DNA from: Candidatus Absconditabacterales bacterium
Lineage (GTDB): Bacteria > Patescibacteria > JAEDAM01 > Absconditabacterales > Absconditicoccaceae
Direction of reading: 5' to 3'
Length of the DNA: 10,675 nt
NCBI GenBank assembly: GCA_938010495.1
Contig: CALLUT010000178.1
Location: forward strand, 1-10,675
In this document: positions 2 to 9,989 of the stretch, one piece after another
How positions within the stretch are numbered: position 1 is the stretch's first letter
Layout of the letters: each line of letters begins with the position of its first letter
The notes under the pieces: model-generated
Databases searched by the model: none
Told to the model about the DNA's origin: nothing
What the model saw: only the letters and a program-made list of their open reading frames with translations
Position numbers and translations under genes: made by a program

Positions 2-499
2 GTATCACGATATGCGATAGTATTTTTTATAATAACGTTTGTTTGAACAATAATGGAATTTCGCCCATCAGGTCTTATGAGAGACGTATGATCAATGTCT
101 TTCTGATTTGCATTGGCATACTTAGCATTATTAGGAGGAGCAAAAATTTGAACTATGATTGTTGTGCTAATGTTACCATTGTTTGATGCTGTTTGGGTAA
201 TTATAGATAGGTTACAAAGAAGAAACAAGAACCCGCTTCATGGTGATTTTAGTCACCTTCATTATAGACTAATGGCTTTGTGATGGAATAGAGATGAAGT
301 TAGAATATTTATACGATGATTATCCCTGTTCTTTGTTATCCTGATGCTTCTTTTGTGAACAGATAGAACATGAAAAGTAATAATATTTGGGCTAATAGCA
401 TTAATATTTTTTGGAGTAAATCGATATCTTTTTTGGAAAAAATGAATGCCGAGCGAATATGATTGGAAAAAATTTACTAAAAAGAAAAAGAAGAAATAA
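2..499 (+). CDS. Phosphoglycosyl transferase of the MraY/WecA (GT4) family, C-terminal part
   Basis: Partial gene; the 5' end lies outside the window and 165 residues plus TAA remain, reading TGA as Gly. This family is an integral membrane enzyme that transfers a sugar-1-phosphate from a UDP-sugar to undecaprenyl phosphate, starting peptidoglycan or cell-surface glycan synthesis. Visible evidence: hydrophobic helices, a DVGSM..GF segment matching the family GD.GS loop, LLGGAKI, LPLFDAVWVII, and the cytoplasmic HGDFSHLHYRL block that corresponds to the HADRSHLHHRL signature of WecA/TagO-like enzymes. A further membrane helix and a lysine-rich tail follow. The lipid-carrier sugar specificity cannot be told. 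Odd points: the usual Gly before the conserved Asp of the GD.GS loop is Arg (AGA), and a CGA at 314-316 occupies a position that is usually Tyr in the last helix. The stop codon abuts the next ATG, so the two genes are probably co-translated. Confidence 0.85.
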
Positions 500-778
500 A
501 TGGATCACATAAAAAATCAATTACAAAAAAGACTAGCCTCTAAAAAAATGACTAGACAATCTATTGGAGCATATATTTTACATCTCCTCAGAAGACATAC
601 TCATTATCCAGAAGAGACAACAGGTAAAATACAAGGTACTATTTTTACCTTAAGAGTTTCATATAAAGAAGATAAAACAATGCTTTTTCACAAAAGAATT
701 GAACTAATGCGTATAGTAAATACTGAACTTACGACAACTTGATACAAAGTGCAGTTAACGGATTTGAGAATACTCTAA
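500..778 (+). CDS. Small protein resembling DUF721/DciA
   Basis: 92 residues, starting at the ATG that directly follows the TAA of the upstream transferase. The TGA at 740-742 is read as Gly and the gene ends at TAA 776-778, so a standard-code reading would lose the last 12 residues. The layout resembles DUF721 proteins: a basic helical N-terminus (LQKRL, RQSIGAYILHLLRR), then a beta segment KIQGTIFTLRVS, a helix RIELMRIVNTEL and a final strand (KVQLTDLRIL). Some DUF721 members (DciA) load the replicative helicase DnaB; that role here is only an inference from this pattern. The gene converges on holA, with the two reading frames overlapping by four bases at their 3' ends. No membrane segment or cysteine is seen. 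It could equally be a lineage-specific small protein. Confidence 0.7.
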
Positions 779-1755
779 ATATTGTATATTGCTTGCTTTA
801 GGCTTACTCGAAATCACTCTGCTGGAAGACGTCATGTTTTTATTGCATGATCTATTTTTACGATTTTTGCGAAAAAAGCAGTTATGCGATCTTCATTTTT
901 GATGTAGATATCACGCATGTTCATTTGTTTCGATACAGCAAATGGAGGAGCTTTTATAGTAGAAGCTATTTCTTTACTATTAGTAATTCATCTTTTGAGA
1001 CAGTCAGTTATTTGAATGATTATTTTAAGACCCCAGTAGAGCATTCATGTGGTTTGGAATATATCTGGTTGGTTAGCCTGCATCTTCGCTATAAAATTGA
1101 TAGTTTTTTCTTTGTCAGTGAAGAGTGTGTCTAACAAGGCAAATGCATTTACTTCTCATTGATGGTAGACAACATCATTAATGTGCTTATCTGTAAGTGA
1201 TGTAAGTCAATGAAATGATGCGTACAGTCAAAGTTTTTCACATTCATGGATGATGTTTCGCACATTATTTCATACTAATTCAGCTATCAATCAAGCTTGT
1301 TGTGAAGAAATTAATCATCAGAGTTGTGTTTTAACAAGCGATGACACTTGAGCTCATTTTATTGGATTGAAGAGTTTTTTTTCACTATTTTTTTCAAAAA
1401 ACTTCCATCATCTTGTTCTTTTGTCTGGCTTATGACAGACTAAGGCAATAATATGGTCTTGTGGAATATTTTCTCGATTTTTTATAAGTCGTTCTTCGAC
1501 AGTATTTTGAATTCATACAGGAATTTTGTATGCAGGATCATTTTCTTTTGGTACTCAATGAATGATGATTAGTTTCTTTTGCGTAAACATTGATCATCAC
1601 ATTACAGTATTTTGGATAGTTGCTAGGTCAATATTATCTCATTTAAATTCAAACAACCCTTGCTCTCAAAATTTTTCCAAAAATCATCCTTTCCACTTAG
1701 AAAGTTCTTGTGTAAGTCCGTATGATTCTTCTCAAGAGAAAAGGAATTTATTCAT
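775..1755 (-). CDS. holA: DNA polymerase III subunit delta
   Basis: 326 residues, ATG at 1755, TAG at 777-775, with TGA read as Gly. Delta is the clamp-loader subunit that opens the beta sliding clamp. Length fits the family (about 330-340). Visible features: an N-terminal degenerate AAA+ start (FLFSGEESYGLTQEL), SMFTQKKLIIIHGVP matching the family's lF..rklvvl segment, NIPQDHIIALVCHKPDKRT, FFEKN, an acid-helix region NIIHECEKLGLYASF (family pattern n-EleKL.lY), then KHINDVV..QGEVNAFALLDTLF and a helical C-terminal domain. It overlaps the upstream minus-strand gene by eight bases, so translation is probably coupled. Four CGA codons occur (residues 89, 94, 166 and 316); residue 94, just before ENIP, is normally hydrophobic. 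It is the only gene in the window ending in TAG. No Walker motif is expected in delta. Confidence 0.82.
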
Positions 1756-2659
1756 TAAATGGTTTGTAAGTGAATTCAATTGCTTTTATATGAGAAAAAT
1801 CTCACAAGTAATCTTTGTATTTTTCTTGTTTCTTTTTTTCATTTTCTCAAAGAAGATTCATTGTTTGCTCATGACTTAATCACTCTAAAATCATATCTTC
1901 ATATGATTTACACAATGACTTATTGGTATCAACTAATCATTTTGCTAGTGCTTGTTTTTCTCTATCTCATAATGGTAATGTGCGTATTTCCTTATTATCA
2001 TTATTGTTATTAAATACAGTTGGATCAAAGATATCATTAATGATAGATAGAGGTATTGTAGGATCTATTTGAATAGTATCCATTTCTGGATTTACATAAT
2101 CCGCATGAATTTTAATATATGTTTCTCATGTAACATCATCGATTCACACAGTAATCTTATCAATAAGACCAAATTCTTGTCAGTTGTCAAATATTCTTTT
2201 TGTACCTTTATCAAAACCAGAGAGGTAGAGATTTTTGAAAAATCTAGAAGTTGCATTTCATGACATGACTGGTTTTCAATGAGCAAGAACCATTCTTTTT
2301 CAGTTTTTTTCTATACAAAATAATTTTTCATCTTCTCATCAAACTATTGATAGTCAATATTTTTCTCAATCAATTTCAATATCTAGAGTATTATTATCTC
2401 AAAATTCTACAGTATTTGGAGAATCTGTATTAGCTTCTATAGATAAAGAATCATGAAGTTTATTTAGTAGATCTGTTTCGCTAAAATCAACATCAGCCAT
2501 TGCTCAACTTGGAGGAATGCTATCTAGTTGATATACCTCTCAATTATACTTCATTATTTCAGCTAAATCAGCCTTACTCATTACTAAGTGGTTACTAGCC
2601 TGAGTTGTTTTGTCTATATCTATTGAAGGAGTTATTGTTAATCCTCAAGCTATTATCAT
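1748..2659 (-). CDS. Unrecognised 303-aa protein upstream of holA
   Basis: The frame runs from ATG at 2659 to TAA at 1750-1748 with TGA as Gly, and overlaps the start of holA by eight bases. I do not recognise the family. The protein is acidic and soluble-looking, with no signal peptide or membrane segment. Its middle is rich in short beta-like stretches with repeated DGEKYG, GGEDEKLF and KNGKRMVLAHGKPV patterns, followed by SRFFKNLYLSGF and TVGIDDVTGETYIKI. The C-terminal 80 residues are charged and probably helical (REKQALAKGLVDTNKSL, ENEKKKQEKYKDYL). A later in-frame ATG (MSKADLAEI, 33 codons in) is an alternative start. I prefer the first ATG because a TATTAT hexamer sits five bases upstream of it and an in-frame TAA precedes it closely. 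The pairing with holA suggests one transcript but does not prove a replication role. Confidence 0.72.
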
Positions 2660-2664
2660 GGGTT

Positions 2665-8831: not shown

Positions 8832-8837
8832 CATTAT

Positions 8838-8843
8838 TACTAT
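8838..8843 (+). promoter_or_regulatory. Candidate -10 (TACTAT) for hflX
   Basis: TACTAT (4 of 6 to consensus) ends seven bases before the A of ATG 8850, the leaderless spacing. A stronger-looking extended -10, TGATATAAT at 8853-8861, lies inside the first codons. It would start transcription after the ATG, and the first beta strand NNIVLLEV would then be lost or need a non-ATG start. Confidence 0.3.
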
Positions 8844-8849
8844 ACGTAC

Positions 8850-9989
8850 ATGTGATATAATCCAAATAATATTGTACTTTTGGAAGTAATGCCAAAACGT
8901 ACAGATAATGAACTGATAAGACAAAGACTTGAAGAGCTAGATCAATTGGTGCAAACGTATTGATGACTTACTGTTGTCGAAGTTGTTCAACAAAAAATCA
9001 AACCAGATTATGGTACTTATGTATGATCAGGTAAGCTTGAAGAAATTATAATTATGATGGAATCAATGAACGCTTGAACCTTGGTTATTGGTAATATTTT
9101 GAAATCAAAACAATTATATAATATCAATGAGATACTAAGACCACATTGACTGCAAGCTCGAGATAGAGTAGATCTTATCTTAAAAATATTTGATCGTCAT
9201 GCATCTTCAACAGAAGCAAGATTGCAAATTGAAATGGCCGCTATTAAGCATATGTGACCTCGTATTTATGGTATGGGTATGGAGTTGTCTCGTCAATGAG
9301 GATGAATATGAACTTCTGGAATATGAGAAACAAATACAGAAATTATGCGTAGACATTTGGCTACAAGAAAAAAACAAATTGAAAAAGAACTTAAACAATA
9401 CGAGTCTGTAAGATCAGTGCATAGAGAATCTAGATTAAGAAAAAATCTTCCAACGGTTGGTTTAGTTTGATATACTAATGCTTGAAAATCAACTGTTATG
9501 AACTCGTTAACAAATAAGTGAGTGTTAGTTGAAGATAAACTCTTTGCAACACTTTGAACTGATGTTGGTCAATTGTATTTTCCTTCAAGTTCTTGAAAAT
9601 GAACAACAGTATTGATAAATGACACAATATGATTTATTAGAGATTTGCCACCATCACTTATTCAAGCATTTATGTCTACGTTGGAAGATAGTGTTGAAGC
9701 AAACTTACTGTTTCACATAAATGATGCATCTGATCCCCTTGTTGAAGATAAAATTCAAGTAGTTGATGAAATACTTGCCCAAATATGAGCAGAACAGCCT
9801 AGAGTACTCGTTTTTAATAAAATAGATATGTTTGACAATCCAGAAGAAAAAAAGAAAGAATTACTCTTGCTTGCAGAAAAATATGCATATACTTCAGTTA
9901 CATTTGTAAGTGCATGAACATGAGAATGAATGGAATGATTAATTGACATGATGCGTGATCACTACTGAATTGAAAAATTTGATTGGTAA
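8850..9989 (+). CDS. hflX: GTPase HflX
   Basis: 379 residues, with TGA as Gly from the second codon onward. HflX is a ribosome-associated translational GTPase, acting on the 50S subunit and splitting stalled ribosomes under stress. Visible evidence: N-terminal HflX domain with GTYVGSGKLEEI (55-65), DRVDLILKIFDRHA (105-118), EARLQIEMAAIKHMGPRIYG (122-141) and GGGIGTSGIGETNTE (150-164). A charged coiled-coil (about 170-195) follows, then the G domain with P-loop GYTNAGKST (207-215), DTIGF (258-262), NKID (323-326) and SAG (354-356). The G2 region reads FATLGTDVGQL instead of the more common FATLDPTTR. The CGA for residue 104, right before DRVDLIL, falls where homologues usually have a hydrophobic or aromatic residue. 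The start at ATG 8850 keeps the first strand (NNIVLLEV). Confidence 0.96.

Follow-up and report, generated by a model that had tools for sequence, protein, structure and literature searches.

Codon content of the window

The question raised by this locus is whether its CGA and CGG codons are read as tryptophan (Trp, W) instead of arginine (Arg, R), in addition to a changed meaning of TGA. The window, i.e. the whole stretch of DNA analysed here (contig CALLUT010000178.1), comprises 10675 bases with a GC content of 0.305. Open reading frames (ORFs) of at least 150 codons cover 0% of it when TGA is taken as a stop and 90% when TGA is taken as a sense codon, and TGA is present inside 11/11 of its ORFs. 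At the TGA columns of HolA, YchF and an Ig-like ORF, the two commonest letters in relatives are glycine (Gly, G) and W for each protein. Judging from the alignments with close relatives, we consider it very probable that CGA and CGG are read as Trp, with TGA predicted as Gly and Arg likely written as AGA and CGT.

The 11 ORFs contain 3431 codons, including 19 CGA, 3 CGG, 22 TGG and 197 TGA; the remaining Arg codons are AGA (75), CGT (32), AGG (6) and CGC (4). AGA is the main Arg codon and the GC content is low, as the Absconditabacterales code expects. A preliminary description had put the in-frame CGA/CGG codons of this DNA at 22 or more, and our recount yields exactly 22; the coordinates of the five sites it singled out (HflX residue 104, PH-domain protein residue 93, the GT4 codon at 314-316, nuclease residue 275 and HolA residue 94) are all correct. 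Its statement that unmistakable Arg residues are encoded by AGA or CGT agrees with R104 and R122 of YchF, both CGT, which are Arg in 119/119 relatives.

Trp at CGA and CGG columns in close relatives

Relatives were available for three proteins. Besides the window's own database rows (P0001, P0016 and P0018), they number 119 for YchF, 14 for HolA and one (P0017) for the Ig-like ORF; the YchF set is the best 120 of 8000 matches, and the HolA and Ig-like sets are 15 and 2 matches, each including the window's own row. The database translates TGA as W in many of the relatives, as P0001 shows for the window itself. Therefore, a W in a relative may stand for Trp or Gly, and the tests were built around this ambiguity, while an R may stand for any Arg codon or for CGA/CGG. 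The genes and aligned codons are the following (residue counts are those of the relatives).

775..1755, minus strand: HolA (DNA polymerase III delta) gene, 4 CGA; TIGR01128, 129.4 bits
808..810, minus strand: CGA, HolA residue 316 (alignment column 324); W 6, R 6 (n=12)
1258..1260, minus strand: CGA, HolA residue 166 (column 174); G 5, R 4, W 3, H 1, F 1 (n=14)
1474..1476, minus strand: CGA, HolA residue 94 (column 102); R 10, W 4 (n=14)
1489..1491, minus strand: CGA, HolA residue 89 (column 97); W 7, R 6, A 1 (n=14)
2780..3880, plus strand: YchF gene, 1 CGA (residue 336) and 1 TGG (residue 296); TIGR00092, 446.9 bits
3785..3787, plus strand: CGA, YchF residue 336; R 73, W 46 (n=119), no third residue
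3956..5650, plus strand: Ig-like ORF of 564 amino acids (aa), 9 CGA/CGG; weak Big_13 match, E 1.2e-4, 23 bits (below the cut-off of 27)
4745..4747, plus strand: CGG, Ig-like ORF residue 266 (numbered from 3950); W in P0017
4877..4879, plus strand: CGA, Ig-like ORF residue 310; W in P0017
5063..5065, plus strand: CGA, Ig-like ORF residue 372; W in P0017
5111..5113, plus strand: CGA, Ig-like ORF residue 388; R in P0017
5447..5449, plus strand: CGG, Ig-like ORF residue 500; W in P0017
5603..5605, plus strand: CGA, Ig-like ORF residue 552; R in P0017

The preliminary description had proposed tabulating the residues at such columns. For these three proteins, W occurs in at least one relative at 9/11 CGA/CGG columns, compared with 1/35 AGA/AGG/CGT/CGC columns (Fisher p = 4.7e-7). 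For CGA alone, W is present at 7/9 columns, and two of the three CGG codons have a relative, one relative only, which carries W at both. HolA columns 97, 102 and 324 hold R or W only, bar one A, with W in 17/40 cells, and the six sites of the Ig-like ORF are W at 4 and R at 2. Lysine (Lys), the usual stand-in for Arg, is found in 0/179 cells at CGA/CGG columns versus 157/1051 cells at other Arg codons. HolA column 174 is mixed. Apart from it, close relatives alternate between Arg and Trp at the CGA/CGG columns that could be aligned and almost never carry a third residue there.

Arg at Trp columns of the window

If CGA and CGG are alternatives to TGG, Arg should also appear in relatives where the window has TGG. 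R is found in relatives at 7/9 TGG columns of the window, compared with 23/431 columns of Phe, Tyr, Leu, Ile, Val or Met (p = 1.1e-7); when HolA column 249 is left out, the count is 6/8. Since the window codon is TGG, misreading of TGA cannot confuse the window side of this test. The clearest case is Trp296 of YchF, which is Trp in 5/5 printed homologues of the PDB and reads R in 14 and W in 105 of the 119 relatives. The rows with R (P0020, P0038, P0039, P0042, P0045, P0047, P0049, P0070, P0093, P0102, P0106, P0109, P0114 and P0115) are scattered across the tree (14 changes). P0017 likewise has R at 3/5 TGG sites of the Ig-like ORF, and the five HolA Trp columns (29, 97, 102, 125 and 324), summed by hand, give R 34 and W 28 in relatives.

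The history of the switching was followed on a YchF tree from which columns 336 and 296 had been removed and W blanked. Position 336 requires at least 28 R/W parsimony changes (200 shuffles: mean 37.0, least 29) and position 296 at least 14 (shuffles: mean 13.4, least 11), and neither shows a third residue. Of the 73 YchF pairs with an identity of 97% or more, 4 disagree at position 336, each time with R against W. We read this switching at the two positions as the behaviour of synonymous codons.

Distant homologues and evidence against Trp

The remaining codons, and the HflX gene, are listed below.

8..10, plus strand: CGA, residue 3 of a truncated GT4 (WecA/MraY-like) ORF; seen in the codon listing
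314..316, plus strand: CGA, GT4 residue 105; rescoring with Trp mixed, wecA -1.0 and mraY +1.7 bits
422..424, plus strand: CGA, GT4 residue 141; seen in the codon listing
3962..3964, plus strand: CGA near the start of the Ig-like ORF; may precede the real start
3965..3967, plus strand: CGA near the start of the Ig-like ORF; may precede the real start
3989..3991, plus strand: CGA near the start of the Ig-like ORF; may precede the real start
5785..5787, plus strand: CGA, PH-domain protein residue 44; seen in the codon listing
5932..5934, plus strand: CGG, PH-domain protein residue 93; bPH_3 -0.5 bits with Trp
7122..7124, plus strand: CGA, beta-CASP nuclease residue 275; aligns with Val in TTHA0252; NF045584 +0.6 bits with Trp
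8238..8240, plus strand: CGA, residue 97 of a 293-aa ORF; seen in the codon listing
8850..9989, plus strand: HflX gene, 1 CGA; TIGR03156, 341.6 bits
9159..9161, plus strand: CGA, HflX residue 104; Ile in 5 printed HflX chains; PF13167 +2.2 bits with Trp

If the Ig-like ORF is taken to start at 3956, the codons at 3962, 3965 and 3989 are all among its initial 12, and a search by eye upstream of 3956 found no clear ribosome site. The database gene call P0016 starts at 3995, downstream of all three, which may therefore lie outside the real gene; a cautious count of CGA/CGG in the window is accordingly 19.

Six of the eight proteins that bear CGA/CGG (the Ig-like and 293-aa ORFs being left out) were rescored with Trp against Pfam and NCBIfam, and three against the PDB. 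Bits are gained for PF13167 (HflX, +2.2), TIGR00445 (+1.7), TIGR03156 (+0.8), NF045584 (+0.6) and PF06071 (+0.4). For HolA, PF06144 (13.8 bits) is matched with Arg only and NF006302 (18.8 bits) with Trp only. The ten HflX chains of the PDB gain 0.1 to 1.9 bits; most nuclease chains gain 0.1-0.2 bits, and 3af5, 9bct and 6q55 lose 0.3 to 0.6. Among seven full-length YchF chains, that of Thermus (2dby), which has Trp in the column of residue 336, gains 6.5 bits, and the other six lose 1.1 to 1.3; the other four printed chains have other residues there. The GT4 ORF with Trp has no match in the PDB. Sub-threshold gains of this ORF with PF13567 (+2.9) and TIGR03750 (+2.6) were set aside, as these families are unlike GT4.

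The preliminary description had argued that relatives have aromatic or hydrophobic residues at its named sites. This holds for HflX residue 104, which aligns with Ile in chains that are near-copies of two proteins, and for nuclease residue 275, which aligns with Val; at HolA residue 94, relatives carry R (10) or W (4). As an argument for Trp, the distant homologues are weak: replacing Arg by Trp shifts the scores of the true family matches by no more than -2.8 to +2.2 bits, some up and some down, and the rescoring is therefore not used as support.

Several observations weigh against a reading as Trp. Bits are lost with Trp for TIGR01128 (-2.8), TIGR00092 (-1.1), TIGR02380 (-1.0) and PF14470 (-0.5), and PF21694 is unchanged (0.0); by these small changes, the distant profiles do not decide between Arg and Trp. 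The hydropathy of neighbouring residues fails to tell CGA/CGG from the remaining Arg codons (p = 0.45), and the absence of Lys is not significant when counted per column (0/11 vs 8/35, p = 0.17). Column 174 of HolA is mixed, and column 249, a TGG codon with R 10, W 2 and Y 1, is weak; we discount the latter because Arg is presumably common there in the family, and it is Asn in 3zh9, the sole solved delta chain aligned. The R of the relatives is known from translations only, so that some may be AGA. Close relatives are aligned at 11/22 codons, the other 11 being in GT4 (3), the PH-domain protein (2), the nuclease, HflX, the 293-aa ORF and the early part of the Ig-like ORF (3), and the evidence for CGG consists of two codons and one relative.

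Alternative explanations

The switching might be chance drift at tolerant positions of ordinary Arg codons, helped by the fact that CGG becomes TGG by a single transition. The split of the distant profiles between Arg and Trp would fit such drift. However, the equivalent transition at CGT or CGC would yield Cys, which is found in 0/526 cells; therefore, the R/W switching is not mere C-to-T change. The lack of Lys in the CGA/CGG cells and the Arg found in relatives at the conserved Trp296 of YchF also speak against drift, and we regard ordinary Arg as very improbable. Ambiguous decoding, in which CGA and CGG yield a mixture of Arg and Trp at each site, seems more improbable still. Two tRNAs could compete for these codons, our evidence is drawn from sequence, and HolA column 174 is mixed as this explanation would have it. 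Against it, most aligned CGA/CGG columns and Trp296 of YchF hold only R and W, and CGA is about as frequent as TGG (19 vs 22), which a lasting mixture would penalise.

The least probable explanation, to which we give almost no weight, is that the W of the relatives is Gly written as TGA and mistranslated by the database, so that the columns are truly Arg/Gly. P0001, in which TGA of the window is read as W, illustrates how this could arise. In that case, however, Gly coded by GGN should also occur at these columns, and G appears only at HolA column 174. With the W and G frequencies that each relative shows at its glycine columns as the model and HolA column 174 (G 5) left out, the chance of finding no G at the W/R columns has a log10 P of -31.7 for YchF, -5.3 for HolA and -1.2 for the Ig-like ORF (one relative), values that are overstated since rows are treated as independent. 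Moreover, of eight organism-named NCBI rows of YchF, with 1-3 W per protein, three show W and five R at position 336, and position 296 is W in them; the three with W at 336 hold 2-3 W in all and were presumably translated with code 25. The Arg found in relatives at TGG codons of the window is also independent of TGA.

Phylogenetic placement and known codes

The window likely belongs to Absconditabacterales, as suggested by a YchF tree of the best 120 of 8000 rows and two outgroups, none of them a certain Gracilibacteria outgroup, with W masked and R at the two Trp columns kept. The neighbours of the window's YchF reach 77% identity along the full-length protein, and the partial P0036 reaches 87%, and its group joins P0091 (Absconditabacterales) with a node support of 0.89. 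Rows labelled SR1, Absconditabacteria, Absconditabacterales and Absconditicoccus lie on other branches of the same tree, and P0104, labelled Gracilibacteria, pairs with an Absconditicoccaceae row (support 0.99). The named YchF matches are SR1, Absconditabacteria, Absconditabacterales, Absconditicoccus, Absconditicoccaceae and one Gracilibacteria.

UGA-recoding bacteria are not known to have release factor 2 (RF2). The available parts of Shulgina and Eddy 2021 (PMC8629427), to which our statements on that paper refer, describe RF2 as kept in species with UGA as a stop. For Absconditabacteria, they predict CGA and CGG as Trp together with UGA as Gly, as the preliminary description had cited. The window resembles this code in having TGA as Gly, Trp-like CGA and probably CGG columns and Arg mostly as AGA, and its GC content of 0.305 falls within the 0.26-0.38 of the four CGA/CGG clades in that paper (PMC8629427). 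Since the change had already been predicted for the group, the second reassignment proposed in the preliminary description is right but not new, being backed by the Arg/Trp switching in close relatives, the Arg at a conserved Trp of YchF and the cited literature. As the window is likely from Absconditabacterales, its code would be the published code of the group and not a novel one.

Anaerococcus and Bacilli of the order RFN20 also turn an Arg CGN codon into Trp at low GC, as predicted for the window; they change CGG only, however, and keep CGA as Arg with tRNA(ICG), whereas the main changed codon of the window is CGA (PMC8629427). The Absconditabacterales code was restated in 2026, in the part of PMC13092985 available. 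A phage study (PMC10746230), a metaproteomic study of Gracilibacteria (PMC11452946) and the Vampirococcus paper (PMC8080830) all discuss the TGA change; their main texts, as available, lack the terms CGA and CGG, CGG and tryptophan, and CGA and tryptophan, respectively. Our literature search, mostly at the level of listings, turned up neither an experimental proof nor a third paper that deals with CGA/CGG in Absconditabacteria.

Proposed mechanism and tRNA searches

In the proposed mechanism, tryptophanyl-tRNA synthetase would charge a tRNA whose anticodon is UCG, and probably also a CCG tRNA, for the reading of CGA and CGG, while a tRNA with GCG would retain CGT and CGC for arginine, so that the four-codon CGN box would be split into an Arg half and a Trp half. 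The tRNA(UCG) and tRNA(CCG) would be expected to bear Trp identity elements (G73, no A20). That Trp-like columns reflect a tRNA charged with Trp is taken from Shulgina and Eddy 2021, where, in the parts available, Absconditabacteria are described as having tRNA(GCG) for CGT/CGC and tRNA(UCG) and tRNA(CCG) for CGA/CGG, the latter two consistent with Trp charging (PMC8629427). After such a change of meaning, CGA, CGG and TGG would be silent alternatives, CGG/TGG and CGA/CGG each being one base apart, which would explain the back-and-forth between R and W even in near-identical proteins.

A tRNA scan of the window found none, and an Rfam scan of the window gave nothing up to E 0.1. In viral contigs, three patterns for UCG/CCG tRNAs with Trp-like features and one pattern for a UCA glycine tRNA revealed, among the loci checked, no contig like the window. 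At least 194 loci were ranked by how much their ORF coverage grows once TGA counts as a sense codon, with the best 30 of 194 and then 18 more checked; the top gain was 0.47, for a 1.4-kb piece, compared with 0 to 0.90 for the window. This negative result in viral contigs says nothing about the host. A scan of genome contigs with HflX returned only two distant loci, in a Planctomycetota and a Flectobacillus metagenome-assembled genome, and a HolA search of viral contigs returned no relative.

Possible stage of the predicted reassignment and its consequences

CGA and CGG make up 22/44 of the predicted Trp codons in the window, equal to UGG (22). We lean slightly towards the view that the change is finished in this lineage, with CGA/CGG rebounded to the level of UGG and the CGN box stably split into Arg (CGY) and Trp (CGR). 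The codon share and the slight R majority over W at the five shared HolA Trp columns favour such a rebound, and the small fraction of relatives (14/119) with R at Trp296 of YchF is evidence against it.

Per 10,000 codons of whole ORFs (n=3431), the window has 55 CGA and 9 CGG. For Absconditabacteria, the available parts of Shulgina and Eddy 2021 give fewer than 37 CGA and fewer than 7 CGG per 10,000 in Pfam-aligned regions, a stage called early and not rebounded, apart from one assembly that is nearing UGG with CGA at 30 and CGG at 24 versus UGG at 35 (PMC8629427). The window thus differs from the published use, but the comparison is loose because a single contig is compared with complete genomes, and entire ORFs are compared with Pfam regions only. 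The excess of CGA is also not certain, since the hand-calculated Poisson range for 19 CGA (about 33-86 per 10,000) reaches below the published ceiling of 37. The new aspect of the window may be this stage, with CGA plus CGG (22) matching TGG (22) as a possibly late example.

NCBI table 25 shares UGA as Gly with the window and still reads CGA/CGG as Arg, so that about half of the window's predicted Trp would be misprinted. A newer NCBI table for Absconditabacterales also exists. If the Trp reading is true, annotation with table 25 turns these Trp residues into Arg, which harms sequence alignment, structural modelling and the searching of proteomics data. A lineage in which the changed codons are common would offer stronger statistics than the cases of rare codons behind the published prediction, and would make a mass-spectrometry test practical because each peptide with CGA or CGG may show Trp. 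The Gracilibacteria metaproteomics, whose protein database was built with code 25 according to the part of PMC11452946 available, could be re-searched with CGA/CGG as Trp.

Neighbouring genes

HolA (minus strand) and a 92-aa ORF at 500-778 (plus strand) lie tail-to-tail with a 4-base overlap at 775-778. With its ATG start, HolA reaches 8 bases (1748-1755) into the end of the 303-aa ORF that lies upstream (1748-2659, minus strand), an arrangement that may reflect coupled translation. This 303-aa ORF has neither CGA/CGG nor TGG in its 303 codons.

The PH-domain ORF (5656-6216, plus strand) follows the Ig-like ORF after a 5-base gap; its bacterial PH-domain match is weak (bPH_3, E 0.036, below the cut-off), and hydrophobic stretches are seen by eye. 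In NCBIfam, the metallo-beta-lactamase/beta-CASP nuclease (6300-7937, plus strand) best matches Cas14, a type VII CRISPR nuclease, at 184 bits, which is far below the cut-off of 800, and next aCPSF1 (155 bits). Its metallo-beta-lactamase part is matched to about residue 120, and the match picks up again at about 217, with about 100 residues between. The last ORF (10040-10675, plus strand) runs off the end of the window, contains no CGA/CGG, and begins with an N-terminal hydrophobic stretch seen by eye.

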